The position numbers and the translations under genes were made by a program. This document shows, piece by piece, positions 42,098 through 63,624 of a DNA stretch of 64,000 nt. Source of the stretch: Fimbriimonadaceae bacterium (GTDB lineage: Bacteria; Armatimonadota; Fimbriimonadia; Fimbriimonadales; Fimbriimonadaceae); the NCBI GenBank assembly GCA_019454125.1, contig CP075365.1, positions 552,218-616,217 on the forward strand, read 5' to 3'. Every line of letters starts with the position of its first letter. Positions within the stretch are counted from its first letter, which is position 1. Below the pieces are notes generated by a model. The model was not told the DNA's origin and did no database searches. It saw only the letters and a program-made list of their open reading frames with translations.

Positions 42098-42148
42098 ATT
42101 TAGGTTCAAAAATGGCGTGTTTTGTCCAAACTTGCGCTATTTGCGAGC

Positions 42149-42193: not shown

Positions 42194-42211
42194 GATTCAA
42201 ATGAACCTAAA

Positions 42212-42257
42212 TGGTTCCTAAGATTGGTTCCTAAACCAGAGGTAGACTGTAGGAACC
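42212..42257 (+). promoter_or_regulatory. Candidate integrase-binding and control region before int
   Basis: Two direct TGGTTCCTA copies (13-base period) are followed by an inverted copy, TAGGAACC (42250-42257), that directly touches the int ATG. A -10-like TAGACT lies at 42243-42248. Binding of the integrase or excisionase to the inverted copy would cover the int start, giving simple autoregulation. This is inferred from position. Confidence 0.45.
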
Positions 42258-48135: not shown

Positions 48136-48591
48136 TTACGACCCCCAAACGATTCCCTTAGCGAACAAGAGCGCGGGAATCATCGCAAGGACTCCAGCTG
48201 CCCTGACCAGTATAACGATGGACTCTCCGCCGTCATCGGCGTTCGTAACCAGAGCAGATGTGCCGAACCAGCAGATCGCGGCAGCCCAAACAAAGAGCGG
48301 AATACCAATGCCGCAACCAAGCTTGAAGCCCACCGAGTGTGTTTCAGAGAAGATCCGGTGCAAAGCAACCAAGCAAAGGGAAAGGTACGTGACCGAAGCA
48401 GAGAGATTCACGCAGAAGAGGAGTCTCTCTCTCATCACTTGACGCGACTGGGAACGTAGCATGGCGGCCACATCAGGCTCTGCTTCGTTCTCGGAGCGTG
48501 TTTCGATAACGACTCGCTGACCCGACGGCAGATCAAACTGGCCGACCTCATCCCAGTCGTTTTCGCCACTATGGCCAGGGTGTTCAGCCAT
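48136..48591 (-). CDS. Uncharacterised membrane protein
   Basis: 151 aa from the ATG at 48591. An acidic soluble N-terminus (~60 residues) is followed by three hydrophobic segments: LLFCVNLSASVTYLSLCLVALHRI, LGCGIGIPLFVWAAAICWFG and IVILVRAAGVLAMIPALLFAKG. No family is recognised. It lies alone on the minus strand among cargo genes of the element; both neighbours point the other way. A frame on the opposite strand is less protein-like. Confidence 0.5.
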   Translation of the reverse strand: MAEHPGHSGENDWDEVGQFDLPSGQRVVIETRSENEAEPDVAAMLRSQSRQVMRERLLFCVNLSASVTYLSLCLVALHRIFSETHSVGFKLGCGIGIPLFVWAAAICWFGTSALVTNADDGGESIVILVRAAGVLAMIPALLFAKGIVWGS

Positions 48592-48752
48592 CACGATTAA
48601 CCTTACCTAAGGGCAGCCGGAGCCCTCGCTGATCGTTCGACGCCAGGTGCCGCAATTTGACCCTCGGGCGTAAATTGCGATGATTCCCTCAAGTTCGTTT
48701 CGCCCTGTCCGGGGGCTGGGGCAAGTCTCGAGCCCCCGTACGAGGTGAAAAC

Positions 48753-49016
48753 TTGCACATTGAACTAGGAGCGCTCTTGATCACGCCGAGGGCGCAAGCG
48801 ATGATCGACCCGGCAGATGTGTTCGAGGCGATCCAGAGGCACTCGATGGGCGACTGGGGCGACCTTTGTGAGGAGGATCGTCAGGAGAACGAGGTTTCGA
48901 TTCAGAACGGCTTCCGGGTTCTGTCCGCATACAGCGACCGACGAGGAGCGAAGTTCTGGATCATCACCGAAGCCGACCGATCCTCGACGACCGTTCTCTT
49001 GCCCGACGACTACTGA
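48753..49016 (+). CDS. Plasmid-related conserved small protein
   Basis: 87 aa from a TTG start with AGGTG 6 bases upstream. The sequence LGALLITPRAQAMIDPADVFEAIQRHSMGDWGDLCEEDRQENEVSIQNGFRVLSAYSDRRGAKFWIITEADRSSTTVLLPDDY matches a widespread small family on plasmids and islands. Its hallmarks are GDWG-LCEEDR-EN, RxLSAY and WIITEADRxxTTxLLPxxY. It is sometimes annotated as 'plasmid related protein'. Function is unknown. A strong terminator follows directly. Confidence 0.8.
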   Translation: MHIELGALLITPRAQAMIDPADVFEAIQRHSMGDWGDLCEEDRQENEVSIQNGFRVLSAYSDRRGAKFWIITEADRSSTTVLLPDDY

Positions 49017-49041
49017 GCAGGCCCCGCCTGCTCCTTTTTTT
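49015..49041 (+). terminator. Factor-independent terminator after the plasmid-related gene
   Basis: GAGCAGGC (49015-49022), loop CCC, GCCTGCTC (49026-49033) and a run of T's to 49041. The stem begins inside the stop codon of the upstream gene. Confidence 0.85.
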
Positions 49042-49317
49042 GATGCGAGATACTCCAAGGTGCGGCCAATCCCTCGGTCAACGACCCGGCCAACGGGGCG
49101 GCCAGGGCTGACCGGGTTTTTTGAACCTGGTTGAACTGCCTCAAAACTCAACTCTCATTCTCCGAGTTCTGTTACTCACTCCTCCTTCCTCATTCCCATT
49201 GCGTCAGTCGTCTTTCGTTCCATTCCCTCGGATCATTCGCCCTGGGGCGGGGCCAACTTTGACCATGAGAGACATATTAGAACGAGATTGGAAGACTAGA
49301 TCGATCTGAAGGCAGCA
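49042..49317. other. Non-coding stretch with a second terminator-like hairpin
   Basis: About 275 bases with no convincing gene. At 49084-49089 ACCCGG and 49112-49117 CCGGGT form a stem with an inner GGCC/GGCC pair, followed by six T's, a likely back-up terminator in the rightward direction. The rest is AT-richer and shows no RNA gene, repeat or promoter that I can support. Confidence 0.5.
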
Positions 49318-49878
49318 TTATCTCGGAGGGAGAGGTTGTCTCCCAAGATCAATGATGAAGCCTTGAAGGAATGCAGTCGCTAACATGCTTAGAATGAAGC
49401 CAGCCATGTTCAACCGGTAGATTCGTTGATCCTCAGCCGAGTCTGAGTCGCACTTTTGGATCACGTTGTATATTCGGATAAGCCAGAGAGCGCACGCCGA
49501 CCACAGAACGAAGTAACTCAGCGCGTTTGCGAGCGGATGGCGGAAGGCAGGCGCGATCCACCAACCGAAGATGAAGAACAGAATCTGACCAACAGCGTAA
49601 ACCTTGAACGAGGTCAGCCCTGATCCAAACGTGATCCGCCGCCAGACAACAACGAACCCGGTCGAAGCAACCACTCGCGACTCGCTCTTGAGCTCTTCGG
49701 TGACCGTCTCGATTTCGACTACCCAATTGCCTCGGGAAGCACTGCGTCGGGTGCCGTGAGCTTGACCAGGCTCGTTCGAACCGTGGCTTGTCTTGCTGTC
49801 GTCTGGGCCACCCATCTCGTGATGACGATACCCGTGGACTTGCCTTAGCGTTAGATTCCGCCCAGCGCGAAGAGCCAT
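49318..49878 (-). CDS. Uncharacterised membrane protein with soluble N-terminus
   Basis: 186 aa. About 70 residues of polar sequence are followed by hydrophobic segments FKVYAVGQILFFIFGWWI, LANALSYFVLWSACALWLI and LNMAGFILSMLATAFLQGFI. No family is recognised. It is divergent from the trypsin-like protease gene with 38 bases between starts, so the two may share control. The long N-terminus could be over-extended; a start near residue 22 is possible. Confidence 0.5.
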   Translation of the reverse strand: MALRAGRNLTLRQVHGYRHHEMGGPDDSKTSHGSNEPGQAHGTRRSASRGNWVVEIETVTEELKSESRVVASTGFVVVWRRITFGSGLTSFKVYAVGQILFFIFGWWIAPAFRHPLANALSYFVLWSACALWLIRIYNVIQKCDSDSAEDQRIYRLNMAGFILSMLATAFLQGFIIDLGRQPLPPR

Positions 49879-49916
49879 GACTTGCTCTTCGCGGGAGTTT
49901 CGCTACGCTCGAAGAG

Positions 49917-51179
49917 ATGAGAATTGTGCCGACTGGCTCCGAGTTTCGACGAACTGCTTGGCGAGCAATTGGCGGGCTTGTCGCCTTAGTCGCTGTCTTC
50001 GTGATAGGGCTGACCAGCACGGTTTTGTCCTGGGTGATCTTCGCGGCTTGTTTGCTGGCACTTGCATGGCACTTCAGAAGCAACGCAGTTCTAGTACGCG
50101 TTGTCCGCTTCGGCTATCTTCGCTCGTACCAGTGGGTTCGCTCCCACATGGTCATTCTCTGTGCGGTTTCGCTCGTCCTCTCGTCCGCAGCTCTGCTTCT
50201 CGAAGTCGAATCGCGTTGGAGGGCTGCGACTCGCCAACCTGAGCGCACGTGTGGCATGGAGGATATTGAATCAGCATCTGCATCAGTTGTCCTGATTCAG
50301 GGCAAGGAAGTCGACGGGACCGGCTTCTGGGTGACTCCGACAACCGTCATGACCAACAACCACGTTGTGGACCACAATCCGGAGCTTGTCGTGAACAAGC
50401 GGTTCCCGGCGACGGTGCTGGCAACCGATTCGCTCCGCGACATCGCCCTTCTCTCGGTGACCTTTGTGGATCCCGAGCCAATCCCCGTTCGGGTCTCCGA
50501 TCAACCGCCACGCCTGGCCGACGACGTCTATGTGATCGGCCATCCGATCGGCAGGAACCTCACGGTCTCCAAGGGGATCGTTTCTGCTTTGACCAGCGAC
50601 GACTACGATGACCGGCAATACATTCAGACCGATGCGGCCATCTCGCCTGGTAGCTCGGGCGGCCCGGTCGTGGACAAGTGCGGGCGAGTGGTCGGCATGG
50701 CCACTCAGACTCTGAGAGGGGCTGAGAACGTCGGCTATGCGATCACATGGTCGCAACTCTCACTGCGCATGGATCAGATGCTCAAGGCCATCGAATCTTC
50801 AACCCGAGAGGAACGCGAGCTGACCTATCCGTCCGAGCAGACGGAGGTGGTCGCGAAGTACTACTCGACGCTCGGCGCCGGAGACCTGCAAGCCGCGTAT
50901 GACTTTTATTCCACGGCACGAAAAGCCAGACTCCCATATGACAGCTGGGCCAAGGGGCTTGGCAAGACGGTCTTCATCCGGCTTGTGGACGTTCGACCCG
51001 GCGAACGGACGAACTTGGTGAAGGTTCACTTCTACTCGACGGAAGAGGTCGAGGCGGGCACCTGGGAATGGCGGACTGGTGAGTTTGAAGGCACGTGGAC
51101 GCTGACCCGAGAAGGCGGCCTCTGGAAGATGAATGAGTCGAACATCAAAGACATCACCAAGCCAGCAGACTCACAGTAA
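49917..51179 (+). CDS. Membrane-anchored trypsin-like serine protease with NTF2-like C-terminal domain
   Basis: 420 aa. Hydrophobic segments lie at ~18-50 and ~78-95. The protease domain (residues ~115-290) has the trypsin/DegP triad: His149 in TNNHVV, Asp175 in LRDIALL and Ser247 in SPGSSGGPVV. No PDZ domain follows; the last ~120 residues form an NTF2/DUF4440-like domain (VVAKYYSTLGAGDLQAAYDFYSTARKARLPYDSW). It resembles Trypsin_2 proteins of bacterial stress and defence loci. Substrate unknown. In an accessory element it may be a quality-control or defence protease; that is inference. Confidence 0.85.
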   Translation: MRIVPTGSEFRRTAWRAIGGLVALVAVFVIGLTSTVLSWVIFAACLLALAWHFRSNAVLVRVVRFGYLRSYQWVRSHMVILCAVSLVLSSAALLLEVESRWRAATRQPERTCGMEDIESASASVVLIQGKEVDGTGFWVTPTTVMTNNHVVDHNPELVVNKRFPATVLATDSLRDIALLSVTFVDPEPIPVRVSDQPPRLADDVYVIGHPIGRNLTVSKGIVSALTSDDYDDRQYIQTDAAISPGSSGGPVVDKCGRVVGMATQTLRGAENVGYAITWSQLSLRMDQMLKAIESSTREERELTYPSEQTEVVAKYYSTLGAGDLQAAYDFYSTARKARLPYDSWAKGLGKTVFIRLVDVRPGERTNLVKVHFYSTEEVEAGTWEWRTGEFEGTWTLTREGGLWKMNESNIKDITKPADSQ

Positions 51180-51279
51180 GGACGAACCGTTCGGTCGGAC
51201 GAACGAGAGTTGCTTGATGGCATCGCTTGGATGAACGTGGAGGCAGCGGACTCAACCCGCAATTCCACGGAGATTCCAG

Positions 51280-52206
51280 ATGTCACAGCACTTTTCTAAA
51301 TCACGGTCGCGCGTAACTTCCAACCGGGAACTCGCGCAACCAACTACTTCGGCCTATCAGACGATCACGGCACAGATCGTCGAAGCCCTGAAACGAGGCG
51401 TCGTGCCTTGGCGAAAGCCTTGGCGGGGACGCGATCAGCTGCCGTGCAACGCCGTCAGCAAACGGCCGTACCACGGCGTCAACCTGCTTCTACTCTCCCT
51501 TGCGCCGTTCAGGGATCATCGCTGGATGACCTTGCGCCAGGCGAACGAGCTTGGCGGTCGAATCCGGCGCGGTGAAAGGTCTTCCATCGCCGTCTTCTGG
51601 AAGCACTTGGACGTAACCGACGAGGAAGACGCCCAAGACGGTCGTCGGCGCTGCATCCCGCTCTTGCGTTACTACCACGTGTTCAACGCAGAGCAATGCG
51701 AAGGGCTTAACCTCCCCGTTCTCATGGACGACTGGAACGAGGAGTTAACGGCCAGGATCGAGAAGGCGGAAGAGGTCGTCATGTCAATGCCAAATCCTCC
51801 AAAGATTGTGGAGGGCGGCAATGTCGCATGCTACCAGCCGCCCGAGGACTTGGTCCGCATTCCCAAGATTCGAGACTTCGAGTCGGCGGAAGCCTACTAC
51901 GCGACCCTCTTTCACGAACTCGGGCACTCCACCGGGCATCTGAACCGGCTCAACCGGCCCGGAGTGACCGGTGCGATCCACTTCGGATCGTGCGACTATA
52001 GTCGGGAGGAGTTGGTAGCCGAGCTGACCTCGGCTTTCTGTTGCGCCGAAGTGGGGATCGACAACTCGATCCTCGACAACGCGGCCAGCTACATCCACGG
52101 ATGGTTAGAAGCTTTGCAAGGTGATCCAAAGGCCGTCGTCGCAGCAGCCGGGCAAGCCCAACGCGCGACCGACTACATCCTCAACGTTCCTCCGAGATCG
52201 GAGTGA
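51280..52206 (+). CDS. ardC: ArdC-like antirestriction protein (N-terminal ssDNA-binding plus zincin)
   Basis: 308 aa. N-terminal ArdC domain: SAYQTITAQIVEALKRGVVPWRKPWRGRDQLPCNAVSKRPYHGVNLLLLSL, the classic opening, and YYHVFNAEQCEGL. The C-terminal metallopeptidase-like domain has the zinc motif FHELGHSTGH (His212, Glu213, His216). EELVAELTSAFCCAEVGI carries the third ligand Glu. ArdC proteins bind single-stranded DNA and protect an incoming element from restriction. Its presence supports conjugative or natural-transfer history of this element. Confidence 0.88.
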   Translation: MSQHFSKSRSRVTSNRELAQPTTSAYQTITAQIVEALKRGVVPWRKPWRGRDQLPCNAVSKRPYHGVNLLLLSLAPFRDHRWMTLRQANELGGRIRRGERSSIAVFWKHLDVTDEEDAQDGRRRCIPLLRYYHVFNAEQCEGLNLPVLMDDWNEELTARIEKAEEVVMSMPNPPKIVEGGNVACYQPPEDLVRIPKIRDFESAEAYYATLFHELGHSTGHLNRLNRPGVTGAIHFGSCDYSREELVAELTSAFCCAEVGIDNSILDNAASYIHGWLEALQGDPKAVVAAAGQAQRATDYILNVPPRSE

Positions 52207-52218
52207 ACATCCAAACAA

Positions 52219-52246: not shown

Positions 52247-53836
52247 TCATATTGAGTCTTTCATGTAGCCAAACTCGCGATGCAGCCTTTTCATCAGTTC
52301 GATCTGCGCCGAGAGTGAACGTGACTCGTGCGCAGAGTCTGTAACGTCGCGGTGTGCACTCTCTTCGCTCAGGTCCACCAAACGGAAACTGCCTGCAAAA
52401 GAAACGTCCCTCAGACCTGTTAATGCAGGTCCTTTTGCGGTTCGCGCATTGCCTTTGAAGCTCAGTGTCGCGCCAGCCGGGAAAAGCACTCGCTGTATAT
52501 GTTGTTTGACTTCGAACGATGCACAAAGCCAAATCTCATCAACCTTGTTGAGGAACATACGAGAGAACTCCACGACCTTTTCGATAGCCGGTTCGGCACT
52601 CGACGCATTAGGTTCTGCGAGTTTGGCGCGAAGCTCACGCATGGCTGATTCGAACTCCCTGAGTTGCTGTGCTGCCATCTCATCCGGTATCACTCCCTCA
52701 ACCGTTTTGAGGATGAGGGCCTTCTGCAATCTGCCCAGGCGGTCCAACTCTTGCTCAAATCGTTTTCGTTGCTCAACCAGCAGTGCGCGATCCGCGTCTG
52801 CTTGCCTATAGAGAGATGCAACAGCCGCTTCGTCGAGAGGCAACTCGGCGCGGATCGCTGAAAGGAAGCGGGCAAACGCGATCTCGACCGCTTCCCGTCG
52901 CAAGTTTGTCTGAGAACAGCGCCGACACCTGTAGTAGGCGTATTTTGCGGATCGTCCGTGGGACCAGCCGGCGGTGAGCGCCTTGCCACATAGGCATCGA
53001 ACCGTTCCCCGGAGAGGAAAGTGTGGGTTCTCTCGGCGTATCGTCTCCGGCATTTGGACGCGCCGCAGGCCGTTTTGAGCCGCATAGAACAGGGACTCCG
53101 AAATGATGGGAATCATCGGCGGCTCTCCTCGAACTTCCATGCCGAATGCCTCGATGATGCCTATATATGCCTTGTTGCGTATCATCCGGTAAAGGGATGT
53201 CGTCCCTATGGACACGCCTTGGGTACGGGTCCACTCACCGATCTCGGCTACAGTCCAAGTTCCCCTCGCAAAGCGCTCAAAGATTGCCGTAACAAGTGGG
53301 ACATTCTCCGGGTCGGGCTCCATCGTTGCCTTGCCCTGCGACCGTATGTTGCGAAATCCGAACGGGGCTTTAAAGACCCATCTGCCTTGTGTTACCGCCT
53401 CCTTCATTCCGTTGTAGGTTCGCTCTGAACGGACATCGTTGTCGAACTGGGCCGTAGCCGCCAACATGCTTTCAAGGAACCGACCAGCAGGCGAATCGTC
53501 GAACCTCTCATCAATGGACTCAATGCGAACGCCGCACTCCCTCAAGGTGCGTTTGAGGTGGTGATAGTCCTCCGTGTACCGTGCAAACCGGTCGATTTTC
53601 GGAAAGATGAGAGCATCGATCCTGCCTTTCTCGCGCTGGCAAAACGCCAACATCTCCTGAAGTACAGGACGATGCTCGGTCTTGGCCGATTCCCCTTCTT
53701 CGACAAAGAGCCTGGCGAGGTCGTATCCCTTGGCCGTGACATACTCAATCACACGCCTTCTTTGTGTGATCAGCGAAGTTCCGTCAATTGCTTGTCGGTC
53801 TGTTGAGACCCGGATGTAGGCTATAACCCGTACCAT
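52247..53836 (-). CDS. Large serine recombinase
   Basis: 529 aa from the ATG at 53836 (MVRVIAYIRVSTDRQ), the normal resolvase start; an earlier ATG adds four residues. The catalytic Ser is in RVSTD, followed by FPKIDRFAR and the conserved Arg residues of the resolvase fold. A Recombinase domain (APFGFRN...) and a zinc ribbon (CLCGK...YYRCRRC) are followed by a coiled coil (~370-420). Such enzymes integrate phages and elements at specific sites. It is a second, unrelated recombinase in the same island, so part of 52-64 kb could be a nested element. Its own attachment sites are not identified. Confidence 0.93.
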   Translation of the reverse strand: MVRVIAYIRVSTDRQAIDGTSLITQRRRVIEYVTAKGYDLARLFVEEGESAKTEHRPVLQEMLAFCQREKGRIDALIFPKIDRFARYTEDYHHLKRTLRECGVRIESIDERFDDSPAGRFLESMLAATAQFDNDVRSERTYNGMKEAVTQGRWVFKAPFGFRNIRSQGKATMEPDPENVPLVTAIFERFARGTWTVAEIGEWTRTQGVSIGTTSLYRMIRNKAYIGIIEAFGMEVRGEPPMIPIISESLFYAAQNGLRRVQMPETIRRENPHFPLRGTVRCLCGKALTAGWSHGRSAKYAYYRCRRCSQTNLRREAVEIAFARFLSAIRAELPLDEAAVASLYRQADADRALLVEQRKRFEQELDRLGRLQKALILKTVEGVIPDEMAAQQLREFESAMRELRAKLAEPNASSAEPAIEKVVEFSRMFLNKVDEIWLCASFEVKQHIQRVLFPAGATLSFKGNARTAKGPALTGLRDVSFAGSFRLVDLSEESAHRDVTDSAHESRSLSAQIELMKRLHREFGYMKDSI

Positions 53837-54000
53837 CTCTTGAAACATGAATAAAGCAACTCGGCAAGCGCTTCCGATTGCTCAATTGTCAGCTTCGCAG
53901 GTTTCTGGGATTTGTCACTAGGCAAAGAAACGATGCACCCGTGAAACTCCAATTGCAGTTCTTGCGAGTCTTCGCGACCTGTCAGATTATTAGCCGTCAT
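53821..54000 (-). CDS. Small protein before the serine recombinase
   Basis: 59 aa from the ATG at 54000 (MTANNLTGRED...). It has a short hydrophobic strand (LQLEFHGCIVSLP) and a helix (TIEQSEALAELLYSCFKRWYGL). It overlaps the replication gene upstream by 11 bases and the recombinase gene downstream by 16, suggesting coupled translation. I recognise no family; it may be a recombination directionality or replication accessory factor. Confidence 0.5.
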   Translation of the reverse strand: MTANNLTGREDSQELQLEFHGCIVSLPSDKSQKPAKLTIEQSEALAELLYSCFKRWYGL

Positions 54001-54427
54001 TTGTTTCTTTCTTTGAGTGATAGTTGCTTTTGTTGTTTTCGCTTTGTGAACTTCGCAATGTGAAGTCTCCAAGACCGATCCGACGCCGGTACAGTGCCGA
54101 TTCAAGGAAAAGGGGGTGAATCGCAAAGACAAGACCCGACCGAGATCGCCTGCGTTCGGCGGTCGAATACAGTCGCCGGTTGAATCGGTCTCGGACGACG
54201 ATCAACCCGCGTTTGACGAGCGTATCCACGGCGCGGCTGACGGCGGCGCTCTCCCGGCCCGTGTGGCTTTTGAGTTGGCTGTGACTGAGCCAGTCTTCAG
54301 GCTTCTGCCAGCCATAGGTCTGCCGGACGATGACGCAGAGCACCCTCCACTCCGTGTCGCTCAAGAGCTTCATCACCCGGTCCAAGAGCAGGTTCGGGAA
54401 TGGCGTCGTGTTGGCGAGCCTACTCAT
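53990..54427 (-). CDS. Phage replication protein O-like winged-helix protein
   Basis: 145 aa. N-terminal region TPFPNLLLDRVMKLLSDTEWRVLCVIVRQTYGWQKPEDWLSHSQLKSHTGRESAAVSRAVDTLVKRGLIVVRD is the phage_rep_O/RepA_N-like origin-binding winged helix with the 'R-T-x-G' turn. A basic tail follows. It overlaps the next upstream gene by 8 bases. Together the two look like a split initiator: DNA-binding part here, helicase-loading part upstream. It would let the element replicate on its own after excision. Confidence 0.78.
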   Translation of the reverse strand: MSRLANTTPFPNLLLDRVMKLLSDTEWRVLCVIVRQTYGWQKPEDWLSHSQLKSHTGRESAAVSRAVDTLVKRGLIVVRDRFNRRLYSTAERRRSRSGLVFAIHPLFLESALYRRRIGLGDFTLRSSQSENNKSNYHSKKETNDG

Positions 54428-54710
54428 TGGCGTACACCGGAGGATCGTAGTCGTTCTCGATGGCGGAGATAAGCAGCGATGCCGGTCTTCGAGCGGCGCG
54501 AAGCGGAAGCCAGTTCAGCTGACGCTCAATCCGCTCGGCGGGATACTGATCGACCAGGCTTCGGGCTTTTCTGAGTCCGACCCCGACATGGACGAGCTCC
54601 AGGACGAGCTCTTCATCAGGAGAAAGGACCGCATCATCCGGCGTTGGGCGGCGACGCCTCTTCCCGTCTGCCTGGGGCAGGATCTCGCCGATCGGCTCGA
54701 AACCGCTCAT
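54420..54710 (-). CDS. Replication initiator/helicase-loader C-terminal-like protein
   Basis: 96 aa. The core LVLELVHVGVGLRKARSLVDQYPAERIERQLNWLPLRAARRPASLLISAIENDYDPPVYANE resembles the C-terminal domain of plasmid and phage initiators. Its landmarks are ARxLVxxYPxERIxxQLxWLPxRxAxNPAxLLxxAI. It is transcribed just before the rep-O-like gene and overlaps the Mrr-like gene upstream by 4 bases. The pair may have arisen by splitting of one initiator. Confidence 0.7.
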   Translation of the reverse strand: MSGFEPIGEILPQADGKRRRRPTPDDAVLSPDEELVLELVHVGVGLRKARSLVDQYPAERIERQLNWLPLRAARRPASLLISAIENDYDPPVYANE

Positions 54711-55336
54711 TCCAGGAATCCTTTCGCAAACCAGAGAACCAGCAGAATCAGTAATGCTCCGGCCAGCACCCAGCTCGCCCGGTCTGGTCGTGGTCCGTCA
54801 GGGTTAGAAGCGAGTTCGGCCGGTAGGCTGAGAGGGCGTGGCTTTGACGGCGCCCCCGCAAGTCCGAGCGACACTGAGCCAACGGCACGGAAGAAAGCGG
54901 GAGTTCCAAGATCGAGGGCGATCATCGAGTCGGCCAGACTCTCAAGTCCGACAACTCTGATGGGGCGACCTGAGAAGTCGGCAGCTGCCAAACGAGCCGC
55001 CCGAGATACTTGAGACGAGCTAATGATCATGCCGGCCGGAATCTGATCGCGAAGCAGAATGCCTCGCAGCTCATCGACCGCCCGTTTTGAAAGTGGTGAT
55101 CGCCAGTGCCGGATCTGCACAGCGACCTCGATGCCGTCTTCTCCAATCTGAGCAAGGAAGTCCGGACCCACGGAGCCTCGGCCGCGTCGGCGAGGGCGGT
55201 TGAGCGTTCGAATGCAGTGATAGCCACTTGCTCCGAGCCAGAGCCAAACGATCCTCTGAAAAGTCTTGAAATCGAGGCCAGAGAGCATGGAGCGGACATA
55301 TAAACTGCGGCTGCTGTTGCTGTCGCGGCGGCTCAT
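54707..55336 (-). CDS. Membrane-tethered Mrr-like restriction endonuclease fold protein
   Basis: 209 aa. An Mrr_cat-type domain: FKTFQRIVWLWLGASGYHCIRTL...GSVGPDFLAQIGEDGIEVAVQIRHWRSPLSKRAVDELRGIL. It gives the D...ExQ residues of a PD-(D/E)xK site, with Gln-x-Arg where Gln-x-Lys is usual. The C-terminus has a single hydrophobic helix (ASWVLAGALLILLVLWFAKGFL). Mrr-like enzymes cut modified DNA. It lies inside the replication operon, overlapping both neighbours by 4 bases, so it could be a defence gene or an element-processing nuclease. Confidence 0.78.
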   Translation of the reverse strand: MSRRDSNSSRSLYVRSMLSGLDFKTFQRIVWLWLGASGYHCIRTLNRPRRRGRGSVGPDFLAQIGEDGIEVAVQIRHWRSPLSKRAVDELRGILLRDQIPAGMIISSSQVSRAARLAAADFSGRPIRVVGLESLADSMIALDLGTPAFFRAVGSVSLGLAGAPSKPRPLSLPAELASNPDGPRPDRASWVLAGALLILLVLWFAKGFLE

Positions 55337-55746
55337 CCTTGGCCCTCCATAAACTCGGCCACATCACCAGACCACTTGCCCGGCTGAACGTGGGACCACT
55401 GAGGCTTGATGCTGCCGTCCACGTTGTGGAGTCGATCGGGCAAACACCCTTTGCAGCCTGCCAGCTTGCAGACGTGCTTCGTCGGAAAGGACCCATCCTC
55501 GGAGAACACATCGCGCACATTTAGCTTGCGCGCCAATTGATACTCGAGGTTCCTGATGATCGGCGCCACGGTCTTATAGAGCGGATTGGTCCGTCCATGG
55601 ATGATGTGGCAGATTGTTGACTTCGCCACCCCACAGTCTTTTGCCAAGCGGGAGGTTCCACGAAATCCGTATCGACTTGAGTGCAACATCAACGCGGCGA
55701 CGCGATTGTGGCAAATGGCTGGTGCGATGCGAAGTTGTTTTTTCAT
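55333..55746 (-). CDS. XRE-like regulator with Cys cluster, first gene of the replication operon
   Basis: 137 aa from the ATG at 55746 (MKKQLRIAPA). A helix-turn-helix occupies ~30-75 (RGTSRLAKDCGVAKSTICHIIHGRTNPLYKTVAPIIRNLEYQL). A Cys/His segment, HVCKLAGCKGCLPDRLHNVDGSIKPQWSHV, probably binds zinc. Similar proteins precede phage-O-like initiators on other elements, as I recall. Probable autoregulator of replication. The longer frame upstream lacks a ribosome site and overlaps the next gene's 3' end. Confidence 0.72.
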   Translation of the reverse strand: MKKQLRIAPAICHNRVAALMLHSSRYGFRGTSRLAKDCGVAKSTICHIIHGRTNPLYKTVAPIIRNLEYQLARKLNVRDVFSEDGSFPTKHVCKLAGCKGCLPDRLHNVDGSIKPQWSHVQPGKWSGDVAEFMEGQG

Positions 55747-55816
55747 TGCGATTTTCAGCGTGCCCGCCGAGGGGAATAGCCGCAATTGAAGTTTCTCCAA
55801 CCGAACGTTTTCCGAA

Positions 55817-56386
55817 CTATTTCGGACCCCGCGTGATGCGACGCGCAACCTGAAACTCGCTCATTTCCTGCTCCCTCAACATCGAACGAATCGATGCGGA
55901 TGCATTGACGAGCTTGAGCCGATTCGCCCGAACAAAAGCCGAAACATATGTTCTAGAGCGAATGTCGAACGAGTGCCAGCTTCCCGAGGAGCCAAGGTAC
56001 CGGACGCTCCGATTCAGTGCCACACAGCCACCGAACTGGCTTCGCTTAAGCCGAGCGAAGAGCCAGACGACGCCAATCGCAGCGAGGGCGGAACCGAGCA
56101 AGAAGGCCGCCAGGCTGAGATACCAAGCCGCCCCAAGTCCCAGAGCGACGAATGACCCGACTCCCAAGAGGGCAACCAGGGACAAGGCTGCAATGAGGAG
56201 TCGGTCTGCAACCCGAACGTGGGCGCGGCACTGATGGCAATATGGGATGTCCCATGCCCAGCCCCGAGTCTTGGAGTTTCGGTTTCTCTCAGTCCCGCTG
56301 ATCGTCAGCCAGGTTCCAGGAAAGCGCCCGCAGCAGGCGCATTGCCGAGGGAAGGCGAACTGCTTGCCTGAAACATCGACTCTCAT
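55817..56386 (-). CDS. Membrane protein with N-terminal zinc ribbon
   Basis: 189 aa. CACCGRFPG and CHQCRAH form a four-Cys zinc ribbon around residues 17-55. Two membrane helices follow (LLIAALSLVALLGVGSFVALGLG and AWYLSLAAFLLGSALAAIGVVWLF), then a polar C-terminal domain with SGSWHSFDIRSRTYVSAFVRAN. This plan occurs in proteins of unknown function that may sense membranes or stress. No link to its neighbours is clear. Confidence 0.6.
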   Translation of the reverse strand: MRVDVSGKQFAFPRQCACCGRFPGTWLTISGTERNRNSKTRGWAWDIPYCHQCRAHVRVADRLLIAALSLVALLGVGSFVALGLGAAWYLSLAAFLLGSALAAIGVVWLFARLKRSQFGGCVALNRSVRYLGSSGSWHSFDIRSRTYVSAFVRANRLKLVNASASIRSMLREQEMSEFQVARRITRGPK

Positions 56387-56485
56387 CCTTCGACCATCCA
56401 GGACGCAGAATCCGCGTCAAATTTCAATCACCAAACCGAACAAAGACCGAACGAAGGTATGCCCCTCACAGCGAGGGGCAAGTGG

Positions 56486-57013
56486 TTAGAACTCCGGATT
56501 GCCGAACAGACAGCCGAGAAAGTCGCGGTTCACAATGCGCTCGATGAGGCGATCCACAGTCGGGTTGAATCGTGCGAATGTCGGTGGCCGATCCGGGGCT
56601 CTCCGCGAGATCACCAGGTCAACTTGGGGATCGAACTGGTATCGCCACAGCCGAGCCGCTCGGAATGGCTCATCCTTCAGATCCTTGCCAAGATGATGAT
56701 GGAAGCCACCTGAGAACACGAGGACCCTGGGCGATCCCCAGCGAAGCGGCACGATGGCCACCCGCTGATGGGCCGGGTTGTGAATCCCGGTGACGATGAC
56801 GCCACTACTAAGAACAAGTGATTCCGTCGTTCGCTCTATCTCGTCGAGCTCACCCGGCGAGTGACGCGGTTGGCCGTGAGCCGCCTCGACTTTCACGAGC
56901 TTCGCTCCCAGGAGTCGGGCATTGCCGTAGAGCCAAAGACCAGCTGGCTCATAGAAGCCGGGCTCCGAATCGAAGGGAGCCGTTCGGGTTGGGGGTGCAA
57001 GGTGCGTTTTCAC
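56486..57013 (-). CDS. DprA/Smf-like Rossmann-fold protein
   Basis: 175 aa. The core VLSSGVIVTGIHNPAHQRVAIVPLRWGSPRVLVFSGGF resembles the nucleotide-binding part of DprA-like proteins that carry a G-x-H-S/N-P motif. The rest (FRAARLWRYQFDPQVDLVISRRAPDRPPTFARFNPTVDRLIERIV) is consistent with a C-terminal helix. True DprA loads RecA on incoming single-stranded DNA; short relatives occur in mobile elements and some defence loci. The gene runs opposite to the SNF2 helicase with ~130 bases between their starts. Assignment is moderate. Confidence 0.5.
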   Translation of the reverse strand: MKTHLAPPTRTAPFDSEPGFYEPAGLWLYGNARLLGAKLVKVEAAHGQPRHSPGELDEIERTTESLVLSSGVIVTGIHNPAHQRVAIVPLRWGSPRVLVFSGGFHHHLGKDLKDEPFRAARLWRYQFDPQVDLVISRRAPDRPPTFARFNPTVDRLIERIVNRDFLGCLFGNPEF

Positions 57014-57144
57014 CCACCGACCGTCTCAATGAGCTCGGACCTTTGCGAATCACGTTGCTTGCGGCAAACGACTTCAGTTCCCCAGTTGGCTCACTCCACC
57101 CCCATGGAAAAAGCCGCATAATCCAGGCAAGATCGAACTGAAAG

Positions 57145-60027
57145 ATGCAACTCACCGACTACCAGGCCGCGTTCTTCGCACACGAGCTCACCAAACGCAG
57201 CGCTTCAGACAGCGTTGAAAAGCTCGCGCACGTTCTGGCGGACGCTCAGGTAGACCTCAATCCACACCAGGTTGAGGCGGCGCTCTTCGCCTTTCGGAAT
57301 CCGTTCTCAAAGGGAGCCATTCTCGCGGACGAAGTCGGACTTGGAAAGACCATCGAGGCCGGTCTCTTACTTGCTCAAAACTGGGCCGAACGCAAACGAA
57401 GGTTGCTTGTCATCGTCCCGGCCAATCTGCGAAAACAATGGAGCCAAGAGCTGGCCGACAAGTTCTACCTACCTTCCGTGATCCTGGAAGCGAGGAGCTT
57501 TAATGAAGCCATCGCGAAAGGCAATCTCAACCCGTTCAAGCAGGACGCCATCATCCTTTGCTCGTACCAGTTCGCCAAGGCAAAAGAGCCCTACGTCAAG
57601 CAAACCGATTGGAATCTCGTTGTGATCGATGAGGCCCACAGGCTCCGGAACGTGTACAAGGGCACGAGCAAGATTGCCCTTTCGATCAAGAACTCTGTTG
57701 CGCCGTTTCCGAAGGTTCTGCTGACCGCTACACCGCTCCAGAACAGCCTGTTGGAACTGTACGGTCTGGTTAGCATCATCGATGACTACGCTTTTGGCGA
57801 TCAGAAGAGCTATCGCCAACGGTTCACGAGGCTCGGTGAGAACGAGGACTTCGCCGAACTCAAAGAGCGCCTTGCTCCCATCTGCAAGCGAACTCTCAGA
57901 AGGCAAGTGCTGGAGTACGTCAGATACACGAACCGCCATGCATTGGTGCAGGAGTTCGTGCCAACTGAGGAAGAACAGCGACTCTACGATCTTGTGTCGG
58001 AATATCTGCAAGCAGACAAGCTCTACGCCCTTCCGGCCAGTCAGCGAGCATTAGTGACTCTCATTCTCCGGAAGCTGCTCGCCTCATCGACCTACGCGAT
58101 TTCAGGAACCCTTCAAAGCCTGATCGATCGCCTTTCCGAAGCGGAAGCCGACGCTGAGAGAGTTGAAGCCGCTCCAGAGGACCTGCCGAGCGAATGGGAG
58201 GACTATGACGAGTTGGCCGATGAATGGAGCGAAGAGGAAGAAGAAGGGCCCAAAAAGGGTGAACCATTGACGCCCGAGCAACTGGCCGAACTGAAGGAAG
58301 AGAAAGCCAAGCTCCAAGAGTTTTGTGCCTTGGCTAAATCCATCGTCAAGAACTCTAAAGGGGAAGTTCTGCTTACGGCCCTACGTCGTGGATTCGACGC
58401 CGCAGCAAAGGCTCAGCAAGAGCGAGGAGGCGCGACGCTTCAGCAGAAGGCCGTCATCTTCACCGAATCCAGACGAACCCAGGAGTATCTGTTCAAGATC
58501 CTCAACGAGACCGAGTTTGCCGGTCAGGTGATGCTCTTCAACGGCACCAATACCGATCAACTCTCAAGGGACATCTATCAAGAGTGGCTCAAGAAACATG
58601 CCGGGACGGACAAGGTCAGCGGATCGAAGTCGGCCGATATGCGGCAAGCCCTTGTTGAGAATTTCCGAGATAACGCCTCGATCCTTATCGCTACGGAAGC
58701 AGCTGCCGAGGGGATAAACCTCCAGTTCTGCAATCTCGTGGTCAACTACGACCTGCCGTGGAATCCGCAACGAATCGAGCAGAGAATCGGGCGATGTCAC
58801 CGATACGGTCAAAAGTTCGACGTCGTTGTCGTCAACTTCCTGAATAAGAACAACGCGGCGGACGTTCGGGTCTACGAGTTGCTGGACGAGAAGTTCAAGC
58901 TCTTCAACGGCGTGTTTGGAGCCAGCGACGACGTGCTTGGAGCCGTTGAGTCAGGCGTCGATTTCGAGAAGCGGATCGCCTCGATCTATCAAAAGTGCCG
59001 GACGCCTCAGCAGATCGCGTTCGAGTTTGATGAACTGCAAAGAGACCTTGAAGGCGACATCGCGGCGACCCAGCGTGACGCCCGTGAGAAGCTGCTGGAC
59101 AACTTCGATCAAGAGGTCGTTGAAAAGGTCAGGATTGAAAGCAAAGATGCCCTTGATCGTTTTCAGCACCAACTGTGGCTGCTGACCCGACACGTCCTGA
59201 AAGATCACGCGTCCTTCGAGGACGCGACTTTCTCATTCCAGTTGGTCCAGAACCCATTTCCACCCGAAACCATCCACGCTGGGCCATATCGCGTTGGCAA
59301 AAACGTGGAGAATGCCAACACCTATCGCGTCGGACATCCGCTCGCACAAAAAGTGATCAAATCGGCGGCATCGAAGGAGCTTCCCGAAGCCGAGGTCAAG
59401 TTTGACTACACCGGCTCAAGGAAGAACATCGCGATTCTCAATGACTTCACGGGGAAGTCTGGGTATCTTGCCTGCGTCAAGCTGACGATGACTGCCCTGG
59501 AAACTGAGGATCGACTCGTGATGGTCGGAGTCAGCGACGATGGAGAGGTTCTCGATGAACACCAGGCGCGTCGCCTGTTTGACCTCCCGGCCTCAGTTGG
59601 CGTACGCACAGCGGTGCCGGAGGCGATAAAGGAGCATCTTGCCGGTTCAATTCAGACCAAGAAGAAGATCATCTTAGATGAGGCTTCTGTTCGCAATGGA
59701 TCCTGGTTCGACACGGAAATGGAGAAGCTCGACCATTGGGCCGAGGACCGCCGCGCCAGCCTAAAGTCGGAACTTGCCGACCTTGACGCGAACATCAAGG
59801 AGTCCAAGAAAGCCGCTCGATTGGCCGGAAGCTTGCCGGAAAAACTCGAGAAGCAGCGCCAAGTTCGGAGCCTCGAAACAAAGCGAGAAGAAGCTTGGAG
59901 AGCCTACGACCAAGCGAGTCGCGAAGTCGATCAGCAGAAGGATTCGTTGTTAGACGAGATCAGCAAACGGCTTGAGCAACACATCCAAGAGGATCGTCTC
60001 TTCACGATCCGGTGGCATGTTCTCTAG
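57145..60027 (+). CDS. SNF2/RapA-like helicase of the defence block
   Basis: 960 aa. SF2 motifs: LNPHQVEAALFAFR (Q-motif region), Walker A ILADEVGLGKTIEAGLLL (~59-76), VVIDEAHRLRN (motif II, DEAH), LTATPLQN (III). Motif V is ATEAAAEGINLQFCNLVVNYDLPWNP and motif VI is RIEQRIGRCHRYGQ. An acidic insert (~350-385) splits the two RecA lobes. The C-terminal ~300 residues are mostly helical coiled coil. Such helicases occur with adenine methyltransferases in DISARM-like and other restriction loci. The next plus-strand gene is an adenine methyltransferase. No nuclease motif is visible in this protein itself. Confidence 0.92.
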   Translation: MQLTDYQAAFFAHELTKRSASDSVEKLAHVLADAQVDLNPHQVEAALFAFRNPFSKGAILADEVGLGKTIEAGLLLAQNWAERKRRLLVIVPANLRKQWSQELADKFYLPSVILEARSFNEAIAKGNLNPFKQDAIILCSYQFAKAKEPYVKQTDWNLVVIDEAHRLRNVYKGTSKIALSIKNSVAPFPKVLLTATPLQNSLLELYGLVSIIDDYAFGDQKSYRQRFTRLGENEDFAELKERLAPICKRTLRRQVLEYVRYTNRHALVQEFVPTEEEQRLYDLVSEYLQADKLYALPASQRALVTLILRKLLASSTYAISGTLQSLIDRLSEAEADAERVEAAPEDLPSEWEDYDELADEWSEEEEEGPKKGEPLTPEQLAELKEEKAKLQEFCALAKSIVKNSKGEVLLTALRRGFDAAAKAQQERGGATLQQKAVIFTESRRTQEYLFKILNETEFAGQVMLFNGTNTDQLSRDIYQEWLKKHAGTDKVSGSKSADMRQALVENFRDNASILIATEAAAEGINLQFCNLVVNYDLPWNPQRIEQRIGRCHRYGQKFDVVVVNFLNKNNAADVRVYELLDEKFKLFNGVFGASDDVLGAVESGVDFEKRIASIYQKCRTPQQIAFEFDELQRDLEGDIAATQRDAREKLLDNFDQEVVEKVRIESKDALDRFQHQLWLLTRHVLKDHASFEDATFSFQLVQNPFPPETIHAGPYRVGKNVENANTYRVGHPLAQKVIKSAASKELPEAEVKFDYTGSRKNIAILNDFTGKSGYLACVKLTMTALETEDRLVMVGVSDDGEVLDEHQARRLFDLPASVGVRTAVPEAIKEHLAGSIQTKKKIILDEASVRNGSWFDTEMEKLDHWAEDRRASLKSELADLDANIKESKKAARLAGSLPEKLEKQRQVRSLETKREEAWRAYDQASREVDQQKDSLLDEISKRLEQHIQEDRLFTIRWHVL

Positions 60028-60032
60028 CGGTC

Positions 60033-61118
60033 TCACGCCCTATTGGTCCACTCAAACTTCACCTTGAGGCTGTTTAACGTATCCCAGCCGATGATCTCTT
60101 CCTTCTGAAGCCGTCCCACGACGATTCCCGGCGAAATCCCGAGCGACTCGGCAAACGCCCGAACGGCAGAGCCGCTGAAGTCGTCAGCTTGGACAAATCG
60201 CCTAAAGGCTGACGGCGGAATCATGTGGTTCGCCGCGAATGCATCGGCTTCGAGTTCGTCTTCACTCTTTTCACCTTTGATCACTTCCAAGTACACGGCC
60301 CGCTTTTGATGCCTGAGAATGTGACAGGACTCATGAAAGATCGTGAACCACAAGTGATCGTTGGTTTTGTATCTCAATGTGATCTGGATGAGCGCTTTGG
60401 AGGGAGTCAGCCACCTTGTCGCGCCAGACACGCCCATGCTTGGGAGTTCCGGCACAAAGAGAAGCACGACGCCGCATCGAGCGAAGGAGTCCTTCAGTGC
60501 GGGCACGAATTCGCGAGGGCCTTGACATGTCAGCTTCAGAGCCTCATCAACGGCTTTGGCAAAGCTCTTTTCGTCGTAGTCCGAAGCGTCCACATCTTCT
60601 GCTTCAAGCTCACCTTGTCGGAGCCAGGCCGCGATCAAGTGATCCTTATCAGCCTTAGTCTCAGAGCGTCTATATTGAGGGCTCAGGTTTGCGACCCAGG
60701 CATTAAAGGCCGAACGATCGACGACGCCGAAGAAGCGAAGCAGATTGTGAAACTTCTCACGCGCATTGGAAGTTGGAGGAACCCACTCGTATTCCGCCAT
60801 TTCCTTGTACGTGAAACTCCGCGCCCATTCGAGGTCTTCATCGGTAGGCTCGGGAACGCTCGATCGAGAGAGCCACTCCTGGTAGCGGGCCTCACGTGCG
60901 AGCCAAAAGCGAGCGGGTGTGCCGAGCACCCGTTCCAAATCGACGGCCAACTCCGGTGTAATCGGAGCCTTCCCGTTCACAATCTGGCTGAGGTTCTTAT
61001 CCGAACGCCCCAGGCGAAGGCTCAGCAGCTTCTGGCTGATCCCCTTCTCTTCAAGTAAGTCATTCAGCGTCTCTCCCGGTGGAGAAACGCTCGTCGGTCT
61101 GTATTCCAGGTTCGGCAT
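60033..61118 (-). CDS. higA: HigA-type antitoxin fused to an ImmA/IrrE metallopeptidase domain
   Basis: 361 aa. Residues ~10-75 are the HigA HTH (PGETLNDLLEEKGISQKLLSLRLGRSDKNLSQIVNGKAPITPELAVDLERVLGTPARFWLAREARYQEWL). The C-terminal ImmA/IrrE domain has FTIFHESCHILRH (His262, Glu263, His266). SEDELEADAFAANHMIPPSAFRRF follows with the third ligand. It represses its operon and neutralises the HigB-like toxin encoded just upstream; the protease domain may also cleave a regulator. It stops 6 bases from the convergent helicase gene. Confidence 0.9.
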   Translation of the reverse strand: MPNLEYRPTSVSPPGETLNDLLEEKGISQKLLSLRLGRSDKNLSQIVNGKAPITPELAVDLERVLGTPARFWLAREARYQEWLSRSSVPEPTDEDLEWARSFTYKEMAEYEWVPPTSNAREKFHNLLRFFGVVDRSAFNAWVANLSPQYRRSETKADKDHLIAAWLRQGELEAEDVDASDYDEKSFAKAVDEALKLTCQGPREFVPALKDSFARCGVVLLFVPELPSMGVSGATRWLTPSKALIQITLRYKTNDHLWFTIFHESCHILRHQKRAVYLEVIKGEKSEDELEADAFAANHMIPPSAFRRFVQADDFSGSAVRAFAESLGISPGIVVGRLQKEEIIGWDTLNSLKVKFEWTNRA

Positions 61119-61147
61119 GGTCGTGGTTTCCTCGTTTCTTGAATCTG

Positions 61148-61480
61148 CTAGTGGTAGTCGACGACTTCGATGACCTCAACGGCGGTCACCTGGGTCCAAT
61201 CCAGGCCGCCATCTTCCTTCTCCGGTCTCGGATCGTGGTTGGGTCGGAAGATAAGTCGGTCGTTCGCGGAAACGCGAACGGAAAGTTGTCCTGCGCGGTC
61301 CCCGGTCAGCTCTTCGCATCGACCGGGCAAAGCGCGCATGTCGTCGAGAGTCGTGGCGGCATCCAAGTCGTCCAAGCGCTTCCGAATCTGCTTGGCCATG
61401 TCCGCGCCGTAGGTCTGGCTCAGCTTGGAGTCGCTGTTCATGACCTTGGCCAACTTCTCGGTTGCGAACGCCACGTCCAA
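61148..61480 (-). CDS. higB: HigB/RelE-like toxin
   Basis: 110 aa from a GTG or ATG at 61480. RelE-fold features: MAKQIRKRLDDLDAATTLDDMRALPGRCEELTGDRAGQLSVRVSANDRLIFRPNHDP and a C-terminal DWTQVTAVEVIEVVDYH, which matches plasmid-maintenance killer (HigB) proteins. The family cleaves mRNA on the ribosome. It is upstream of higA with a 29-base gap, the usual HigBA order, and divergent from the methyltransferase gene. Confidence 0.88.
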   Translation of the reverse strand: MDVAFATEKLAKVMNSDSKLSQTYGADMAKQIRKRLDDLDAATTLDDMRALPGRCEELTGDRAGQLSVRVSANDRLIFRPNHDPRPEKEDGGLDWTQVTAVEVIEVVDYH

Positions 61481-61653
61481 TGTGCATGTTCTCCATTCTC
61501 TTTACGTGATCGGTAAACAGAACGGTGCATTGTAGCCCAAAATCGGATAGAATAGCTACCAAACCTGGTAAAGCGGTCCAAGACGCTCAGGGCCCCTGCT
61601 TGCATGTCCTCGTCGAATCCGGTTCAATCAGGCTGGAAGGAACCCAAACTCGA

Positions 61654-63624
61654 ATGAACGAATCCAACGCCAACCCCGAAGTTGAGAAGCTCGACCTGAG
61701 TTCGCTTGATGTTGCTGAGCTGAAGCGTCAGGAACTGGCCGAGCTCTTCCCCGAGGTCAGAACCGAGGGCGGGAAGATCGACTTTGAGCGACTGAAGGCA
61801 GTGTTGGGCGAGATGGTGGACGCCGGTCGGGAGCGATACGGCATGAACTGGCCCGGCAAGGCCGAGTGCATGCGGACGATCCAAGCGCCGAGCATGGGCA
61901 CGCTGCTTCCGATGCCCGACGAGAGCGTGGACTGGGACACGACGGAGAACGTGATCATCGAGGGCGACAATCTTGAGGTGCTCAAGCTGCTCCAGAAGAG
62001 CTACCTCGGCAAGGTCAAGATGATCTACATCGATCCGCCCTACAACACAGGTAAGGACTTCATCTACCCGGACAATTACACCGAATCATTGCAGACCTAT
62101 CTCGAATACACGGGCCAGGTCGATTCGGAAGGCAGGAAGTTTGGCCCGAATGCCGATTCGGACGGTCGGTATCACTCGCGATGGCTGAACATGATGCATC
62201 CGAGACTGTTCTTAGCGAAAAACCTTCTTCGAGATGACGGCGTGATCTTCATCAGCATCGATGATTACGAGGCGCAAAACCTGGTACGGCTTTGCACTGA
62301 CATCTTCGGCGAAGAAAACTTTTTAGGCTTCTTGCCAACAGTGATGAATCTGAAAGGCAATAACGATGAGTTCGGGTTTGCGGGAACACATGAATACACC
62401 GTTGTCTTTGCCAAACACAAGGATCGGGTTAAGCTATTTGAGTTTCCGATCGATGAGGAGGATGAGGATGACTGGGAAGAGGATGAGCTAGGGTTTTACA
62501 AGCGAGGAGCAAATCTCAAAGCAACGGGGAAGAATGCCCCTCGCGAGAAGCGTCCAAACCTCTTTTTTCCCATATACGTCCATGAGGGCAAAGTCCACTT
62601 GGAGCGACAAACGCCCACTGATGTAGAGCTACTTCCGATGACCGATGGCCAAGAAATGTCTTGGCGTTGGAGCAAGACAAAGTTTCAGAAACAGCCTGAC
62701 GATGTGATTATTGTTGGAGAAGGCGACGGGATCGCCATCTACAAAAAGCAACGTCCAAGCTTGGGCGACTTACCTTCAAAGAAGCCGAAGAGCCTTCTGT
62801 ACAAGCCCGAGTATAGTAGCGGCAACGGAACCGCTGCGATCAAGAAGCTTTGCGGAGCACAGCTGTTCTCATCGCCACCAAAACCGCCGGCACTCATTGA
62901 AGACTTCGTGAGGATCGGGTCTCAGCCGGGAGACATTGTGCTTGATTTCTTTGCAGGGTCTGGAACTACGGCTCAATCGACTCTCGAACTCAATGCTGAG
63001 TCGGAGGGCGACAGAAAGTTTATTCTTGTTCAGTTACCCGAGGGACTTGATCCCGATAAGCCAGAGCAACGCGCGGGTGCCCAGTTTTGTGACGCAATCG
63101 CTAGGCCCAGAAACATTGCCGAGATCACAAAGGAGCGAGTTCGCAGAGTCATAACTGGCCTGAACAAGCAAGAGAATCTCTTTAATGACAACATCGTGAG
63201 AGACCGCGGATTCCGTTCATTTAAGCTTGTGCCCTCAAACTTCATTCCATGGGACGGAACCGCCTCCAACGACGCCGACCAACTGGCCAAGCAGCTGAAG
63301 CTCGGCATTGACCACACGCGAGGCGACCGCACCCCACAAGACCTGCTTTTTGAAGTCCTCCTCAAGTCTTGGGGCGAACCCGCGCTCAGCCTCAAGGTGG
63401 CTGAAGAAACCATCGAGGGCGTGCGCGTCTTCTCCATCGCTGAAGGCGATTTCCTCATCTGCCTAGAGGAGAAGGTCTCTCTGGAGTTCATTCGTGCTCT
63501 TGCCGCACGCAAGCCCAGCCGAGTTGTCATGCGCGAGTCGGCGTTCGCCGGCAACGACCAGCTGAAGACCAACGCCGTCCAGACCTTCAAGTCCCAAGGC
63601 GTGACGAGCTTCAAGGTGGTGTGA
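61654..63624 (+). CDS. mod: DNA adenine methyltransferase, type III Mod-like (beta class)
   Basis: 656 aa from the ATG at 61654 (MNESNANPEVEKLD), the typical N-terminus; an in-frame ATG at 61525 lies in the shared promoter region and is less likely. Motif IV DPPY (127-130) precedes the target-recognition region. The SAM motif I DFFAGSGTT (431-439) comes near the C-terminus, the beta-class order seen in type III Mod proteins. The recognition region (~210-400) contains an acidic loop (FPIDEEDEDDWEEDELG). It would methylate adenine to protect host DNA. The stop overlaps the KilA-N start (TGATG). A Res partner is expected beyond the window edge. Confidence 0.92.
   Translation: MNESNANPEVEKLDLSSLDVAELKRQELAELFPEVRTEGGKIDFERLKAVLGEMVDAGRERYGMNWPGKAECMRTIQAPSMGTLLPMPDESVDWDTTENVIIEGDNLEVLKLLQKSYLGKVKMIYIDPPYNTGKDFIYPDNYTESLQTYLEYTGQVDSEGRKFGPNADSDGRYHSRWLNMMHPRLFLAKNLLRDDGVIFISIDDYEAQNLVRLCTDIFGEENFLGFLPTVMNLKGNNDEFGFAGTHEYTVVFAKHKDRVKLFEFPIDEEDEDDWEEDELGFYKRGANLKATGKNAPREKRPNLFFPIYVHEGKVHLERQTPTDVELLPMTDGQEMSWRWSKTKFQKQPDDVIIVGEGDGIAIYKKQRPSLGDLPSKKPKSLLYKPEYSSGNGTAAIKKLCGAQLFSSPPKPPALIEDFVRIGSQPGDIVLDFFAGSGTTAQSTLELNAESEGDRKFILVQLPEGLDPDKPEQRAGAQFCDAIARPRNIAEITKERVRRVITGLNKQENLFNDNIVRDRGFRSFKLVPSNFIPWDGTASNDADQLAKQLKLGIDHTRGDRTPQDLLFEVLLKSWGEPALSLKVAEETIEGVRVFSIAEGDFLICLEEKVSLEFIRALAARKPSRVVMRESAFAGNDQLKTNAVQTFKSQGVTSFKVV

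Follow-up and report, generated by a model that had tools for sequence, protein, structure and literature searches.

The window (the whole stretch of 64,000 nucleotides analysed here) encodes, at 54707-55336, a 209-residue protein of the Mrr fold. The earlier note on this DNA had rightly recognised a gene at these positions; the present analysis adds its strand, which is minus, the plus-strand reading of the same interval containing 8 stops. In minus-strand order the genes of the region are g175, g189, an XRE-like gene, mrr, g96, repO and a large serine recombinase gene, with ardC on the opposite strand:

51280-52206, plus strand: ArdC-like antirestriction protein (ArdcN and zincin-like metallopeptidase domains)
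52247-53848, minus strand: large serine recombinase (Resolvase and Recombinase domains), of a family found in 30 of 36 related loci
53990-54427, minus strand: repO, winged-helix protein (Phage_rep_O, PF04492, E 4.8e-12; PHROG replication initiation, O-like)
54420-54710, minus strand: g96, helical domain of 96 residues, equivalent to the C-terminal part of longer proteins in other elements
54707-55336, minus strand: Mrr-fold protein, 209 residues (Mrr_cat, residues 21-137; D59...Q74-x-R76; predicted C-terminal membrane helix, about 190-208)
55333-55848, minus strand: XRE-like protein with HTH matches; the true start is probably an ATG near 55746 (by eye)
55817-56386, minus strand: g189, uncharacterised, with a hydrophobic stretch (by eye); upstream of the XRE-like gene in closer relatives
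56486-57013, minus strand: g175, conserved and uncharacterised; the last gene in the DNA common to the copy in genome G038

The XRE-like gene and mrr share 4 bases (55333-55336), as do mrr and g96 (54707-54710). It had been proposed that mrr overlaps in this way with both an XRE gene and a replication gene; this holds for the former, while repO overlaps g96 and it is g96, not repO, that overlaps mrr. The replication-type setting itself is borne out by the Phage_rep_O match of repO within the same run. It is through repO, which matches both Phage_rep_O and the PHROG O-like initiators, that the run resembles lambda O-type initiator genes; it differs from them in additionally containing the Mrr-fold, XRE-like and g96 genes. 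No phage structural genes were recognised among the ORFs scanned (10 of them with PHROGs), and no methyltransferase gene lies in the xre-mrr-g96-repO run.

The XRE label is a weak one, every HTH match of this protein, in the window and in the relatives scanned, falling under the Pfam cut-off. A C-x4-C-x2-C motif, perhaps a metal-binding knuckle, is nearly invariant in the family. The g96 protein on its own matches no family, and nothing convincing was found for it among solved structures searched by sequence. Since the longer proteins of other lineages carry only weak helix-turn-helix matches, the "initiator-like" character of g96 is something we infer.

The Mrr-type fold proposed for the 209-residue protein is supported. 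Pfam assigns it to Mrr_cat (PF04471; E 5e-10, 39.9 bits against a cut-off of 21) and, as a second match, to NA-iREase1 (PF22722; E 1.9e-7, 31.4 bits against a cut-off of 27). These Mrr-type matches (residues 21-137) and the C-terminal helix account for all that was recognised in the protein; a separate DNA-recognition domain was not found. The AlphaFold model has modest overall confidence (mean pLDDT 58.5). Its best solved neighbour is MspJI residues 277-427 (Z 10.4, rmsd 3.4 over 136 residues), and the catalytic domain of AspBHI scores Z 9.7; Foldseek alone reaches E 1.5e-3 at best. As modelled, the protein shares its core fold with these solved PD-(D/E)xK members. Many of the 50 structure matches given for the model are to the RNA polymerase subunit Rpb5 (Z about 7-9), which we take to reflect a shared REase-like fold and not function. 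Comparison of the window gene with its counterpart in G038 gave a dN/dS of 0.19 (0.11 for the domain, 0.28 for the tail), and comparison of G008, from the same family as the window's genome, with G093 gave 0.17, indicating that mrr is under purifying selection. Because this holds for two pairs, and because relatives occur across a phylum, the frame is not a product of chance; together with the Pfam match, these findings rule out a fortuitous or mis-called ORF.

The active site departs from that of a standard PD-(D/E)xK nuclease. An ExQxR motif had been put forward for this protein. The sequence does read E70-V-A-V-Q74-I-R76; at that first position the window's clade, ten proteins in all, variously has E, D, A, R, G or K, and ExQxR is rejected as a catalytic signature because E70 is not conserved. 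The conserved set is D59...Q74-x-R76, invariant in 10/10. Thus, the acidic residue (D59) and the D/E/Q metal ligand (Q74) of the nuclease site are present throughout the clade and the catalytic lysine is absent, R76 occupying in all ten proteins the position that lysine has in QxK members.

Among 54 distinct Mrr proteins from the fetched loci (profile score over 80), 6 lack an adjoining XRE-like gene. The 48 XRE-linked proteins fall into four active-site classes: D..QxK (18), D..QxR (10, the window's clade), D..ExK (1) and degenerate (19). In the degenerate class E replaces D in 17/19; one alignment (A2) shows V-x-K at the Q-x-K/R site, while another puts the lysine elsewhere. In a tree of 47 of the 48 proteins (one fragment omitted), built with the active-site columns excluded, the D..QxR group and the degenerate group are each set apart by a well supported branch (100/98 and 100/99, respectively). 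The XRE-like gene still adjoins mrr in the degenerate clade. Conservation of the catalytic residues across the family, on which the earlier note had made its reading depend, is thus partial: it fails in the degenerate class and, at the lysine, in the D..QxR class.

The C-terminal hydrophobic segment of the window protein (residues 190-208) has a mean Kyte-Doolittle value of 2.36. The model places a helix at 186-208, enclosing this segment, and confidence there is higher than the mean (pLDDT 87 for residues 191-200 and 74 for 201-209). All 10 clade proteins have a C-terminal segment of 19 residues, long enough to span a membrane, with mean hydropathy between 1.71 and 2.94; its sequence varies, its hydropathy is kept. 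Judged from these sequences, the claim of a membrane anchor stands: the protein looks like one held in the membrane by a single C-terminal helix. A membrane link recurs, in another form, outside the window's order. At 17 of the 20 XRE-linked Mrr loci found there, the inner membrane protein YdjM (PF04307) is fused to Mrr or encoded directly downstream: it is fused in 8 and the next gene in 7 of the fetched loci, and whole-genome search added one fusion and one neighbour (G151 C241 and G120 C10). YdjM is absent at the remaining three, two of them in G114 and one in G156, where the flank is only 1.5 kb. YdjM thus belongs to the same run in other Armatimonadota, whereas the window's clade has the tail helix instead: no YdjM match was obtained in G000 and five other genomes of the window's family, the window's own genome included. 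Nine of the ten YdjM matches in G120, G133 and G151 lie within Mrr loci, the tenth being beside a g96 gene; G114 has eight matches (two under the cut-off), one in an Mrr locus and the others elsewhere. Tethering is not universal, since 18 of the 19 degenerate proteins, and the Mrr of locus L007, have no membrane segment over threshold; the remaining degenerate protein has an N-terminal one.

Inspection of the DNA around the XRE-like gene revealed a tandem motif, TTCGG-N6-TTCGG, present at three places:

55801-55816, minus strand: copy 1, candidate operator, placed upstream of the coding core of the XRE-like gene
55928-55943, minus strand: copy 2, within g189
56436-56451, minus strand: copy 3, about 50 bases upstream of g189

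The motif was picked after viewing the window. It occurs in 9 of 50 regions upstream of XRE-like genes against a mean of 0.02 in shuffled sequences, a count that reduces to about five independent cases because window and G038, as well as L051-L054, are close relatives; none of 15 other spacings gave any occurrence. When two mismatches are tolerated, the site shows no excess over chance in L016 (12 against 8.2). We read TTCGG-N6-TTCGG as the probable operator of the XRE-like protein.

The run lies in an integrative element of about 29 kb (42.2-71.3 kb) bounded by repeats of a tRNA-Ala gene, its right end falling beyond the window. The tRNA-Ala(CGC) gene itself is at 23118-23193 and copies of its 3' end occur at 32954-33044, 42149-42238 and 71308-71357 on the window's scale. 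The remaining features of the element are:

42149-42238, no strand: left boundary repeat, a copy of the tRNA-Ala(CGC) 3' end
42258-43475, plus strand: tyrosine integrase, near the left boundary repeat
44112-44798, minus strand: Replic_Relax protein (PF13814), putative relaxase
44786-46186, minus strand: TrwB/TraG-like coupling ATPase
57145-63624, plus strand: cargo, SNF2/DrmD-like helicase and type III methyltransferase; the type III REase is next, beyond the window
71308-71357 (L034 7308-7357, beyond the window): right boundary repeat, a tRNA-Ala(CGC) copy

The element is thus of the integrative type, with an integrase gene and, at each end, a direct repeat derived from a tRNA 3' end; it may also be mobilizable, given its Replic_Relax protein and its TrwB/TraG-like ATPase. 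The latter also shows a weak VirB4 match (E 3.7e-4) and a lesser PHROG match to a terminase family (E 1.1e-7); no VirB4-type secretion ATPase was recognised among the large ORFs scanned, some of them by PADLOC only. Besides the type III methyltransferase and REase, the cargo region (57145-63624 and L034 1-7300) encodes an XRE-ImmA-type protein (PADLOC PD-Lambda-2_B, E 1.8e-32), a RelE-like ORF recognised by eye and a further helicase-like protein. Two more elements sit in tandem at tRNA-Ala(CGC) (23118-42238): by ORF reading, the one at 23.2-32.95 kb carries a copper-type P-ATPase and related genes, and the one at 33.0-42.15 kb, which is common to G038, a cation ATPase and RND-type efflux genes. 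The right-hand repeat is overlapped by another serine recombinase gene (L034 7345-8898), which suggests that a further element lies beyond.

Corresponding tRNA repeats are present in G038, a genome from another family of the order. The two share 48496-52214 at 96% and 53310-57032 at 90% identity, with more diverged stretches leftward, and the Mrr protein is 94% identical. The match stops just past g175, and for the type III restriction cargo blastn against the G038 contig gave no alignment longer than 100 bases. Because mrr, by contrast, sits in the shared, conserved part of the element, a cargo origin for it is disfavoured.

The recurrence of the run was assessed in 291 Armatimonadota genomes with XRE and Mrr profiles (A4 and A5). 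As these profiles were built from loci holding both genes, and part of each genome's first-look candidates was scored, the counts that follow lean toward linkage. Among 76 XRE-profile matches at E 1e-5 or better, mrr is directly downstream in 69, two of which are pieces of one gene. The other seven comprise a G096 locus where Mrr starts and breaks off with the contig, a G156 match near a contig end, two short copies in G114 and three weak matches. The G114 copies (L162, G114 C25) lie beside serine recombinase genes, without Mrr. In the reverse direction, an XRE-like gene is directly upstream in all of the top 66 Mrr-profile matches, the list being cut at the first match known to be unlinked (G276); taken further, 68 of the top 74 are linked. 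The 4-base overlap between the two genes occurs in 24/48. Downstream, g96 lies within 2.5 kb in 63 of the top 66 Mrr matches, as judged from 82 g96 matches at E 3.8e-14 or better, weaker ones being left out. Conversely, for 19 of the 82 no Mrr is listed upstream, and 12 of these 19 belong to frames of 390-624 residues (weaker Mrr matches are in fact present on the spot in two of the 19, in G066 and G108 C181), so g96-type proteins do not need Mrr in general. One locus has two g96-like genes (L086 9984-14013). Across 36 fetched loci, the families were counted as XRE 35, Mrr 34, g96 33, repO 30 and serine recombinase 30; only the last three counts are independent, since the loci were chosen for XRE or Mrr. 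The survey of similar loci that the earlier note had called for, carried out here within Armatimonadota, thus finds the best matches linked to XRE-like and g96 genes, with a membrane part recurring outside the window's clade as YdjM.

Wider searches returned little. A single-protein scan of genome_contigs and three queries of viral_contigs, which rest on short peptide patterns, gave nothing; neither did tblastn of the window Mrr against plasmids and phages, PHROGs and NCBIfam for the Mrr protein, or Rfam over 42000-64000. Iteron-like repeats or an origin were not found in three stretches. By sequence, the best solved structure for Mrr was LlaBIII at E 0.58. With PADLOC, the protein gives a weak match of partial length (E 1.2e-6) to PDC-S02, a defence candidate listed without description. 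With a D..QxK relative (L087) as query, 52 plasmid and 3 phage records were matched, each over less than 80% of the query; of the best 20 among the 52 plasmid matches, the majority are annotated as restriction endonucleases. For a long g96 relative, matches covering 24-33% of the protein were found to HTH or HNH genes on three Bacillus/Paenibacillus plasmids. Plasmid pIAD-21 of an Abditibacteriota bacterium (AP024153.1, 81439-81831) carries a truncated XRE relative, which has a serine recombinase on its upstream side and, downstream, a gene resembling a transposase; the two stretches of this plasmid that were read, which do not include 50001-69441 and 93811-102890, showed no Mrr. Among the titles and abstract openings listed by searches of open-licence literature, none described the xre-mrr-g96-repO run.

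Some known systems share part of these features. MspJI and AspBHI resemble the window Mrr in the fold of their catalytic domain, whereas the window protein lacks a separate recognition domain, has a C-terminal membrane helix, carries Q-x-R in place of Q-x-K and is encoded in a replication-type run without a methyltransferase. The NA-iREase1 family, which is REase-like and inactive, is matched in Pfam; the window Mrr differs in having no NACHT domain and in keeping the active-site D and Q. A defence candidate from an E. coli pangenome screen is described as having a putative membrane anchor and a DNA binding or cleavage domain; it came from phage selection and has a coiled-coil domain (DUF4041) (PMC9519451). 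It would thus share an anchor and a DNA domain with the window gene, which instead has a constant place in the replication-type run of an element.

We favour, at a probability of roughly 0.45, the interpretation that Mrr is a core component of the replication or maintenance module of tRNA-integrating, apparently mobilizable Armatimonadota elements, where it would tether or gate the element's own DNA. The XRE-like protein would probably bind TTCGG-N6-TTCGG and set the expression of the run. Held in the membrane by its C-terminal helix, Mrr would work with the run's initiator-like proteins on the element's DNA, most likely tethering or gating it there in replication, transfer or exclusion of a second copy; in the window's clade, cleavage may have weakened, changed or disappeared. 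A core function exploiting the DNA contact of the fold at the membrane is favoured because gene order and linkage stay constant while the catalytic residues vary. Likewise, recurrence of the same gene set in related bacteria suggests that mrr probably belongs to the element's core machinery rather than being an added defence gene. Action on the element itself had been raised only as an alternative in the earlier note; the fixed position of mrr in the element's core makes it the better fit.

The idea that the note had placed first, membrane tethering that confines cutting to incoming DNA at the envelope, can be widened to exclusion of sibling elements: a membrane-held Mrr, joined elsewhere by YdjM, would disable incoming sibling-element or phage DNA under XRE control. 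Occurrence of the membrane link in two forms, retention of D..QxK in 18 of the 48 XRE-linked proteins, the weak PDC-S02 match and the nature of the nearest solved structures, both modification-dependent restriction enzymes, make such entry exclusion or element-borne defence conceivable. However, mrr is fixed in the core beside initiator-like genes and is not variable cargo, the site is degenerate in 19 of the 48 and has lysine changed to arginine in 10, the run has no methyltransferase, and the window Mrr has no added recognition domain. We therefore consider free-standing restriction at the envelope rather unlikely and prefer a core component acting on the element's DNA.

Two further explanations turn on what remains of the active site. 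Mrr could be an active nuclease that processes the element by a nick or cut at a specific site, in the service of replication, resolution or transfer, arginine having taken the role of lysine. Invariance of D59, Q74 and R76 in 10/10 clade proteins, purifying selection and proximity to initiator-like genes are all in line with this proposal, which is nonetheless improbable: the lysine is replaced, a whole clade of 19 is degenerate with the XRE-like gene still adjacent, and the element already has recombinases and a Replic_Relax protein. At the other extreme, the protein might be a relic that binds DNA but has lost catalysis, retained solely to assist the XRE-like protein as an accessory repressor or partner, as the NA-iREase1 match, the lysine-to-arginine change and the degenerate clade could indicate. 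This we hold to be the least likely explanation, since D and Q are kept with R in 10/10 clade proteins and the tail stays hydrophobic despite its varying sequence, a feature that a plain repressor would not need.

Returning to the favoured interpretation, in which Mrr acts on the element's own DNA, we tentatively suggest that the run might represent a previously undescribed module in which an Mrr fold, tied to the membrane by YdjM or by a tail helix, holds or gates element DNA together with an XRE-like regulator and initiators. If this is true, a restriction-type fold has been turned into a membrane tether for an element's own DNA. The gene run is small and defined, and what membrane attachment does for a nuclease fold could be tested in it. 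The usual annotation of an Mrr-type gene is that of a restriction enzyme, and such genes are tallied with defence. The phylum-wide presence of this gene set in the core of elements beside initiator-like genes, its repeated association with a membrane partner and the drift of the active site argue that some of these annotations may describe the biology of elements and not defence.
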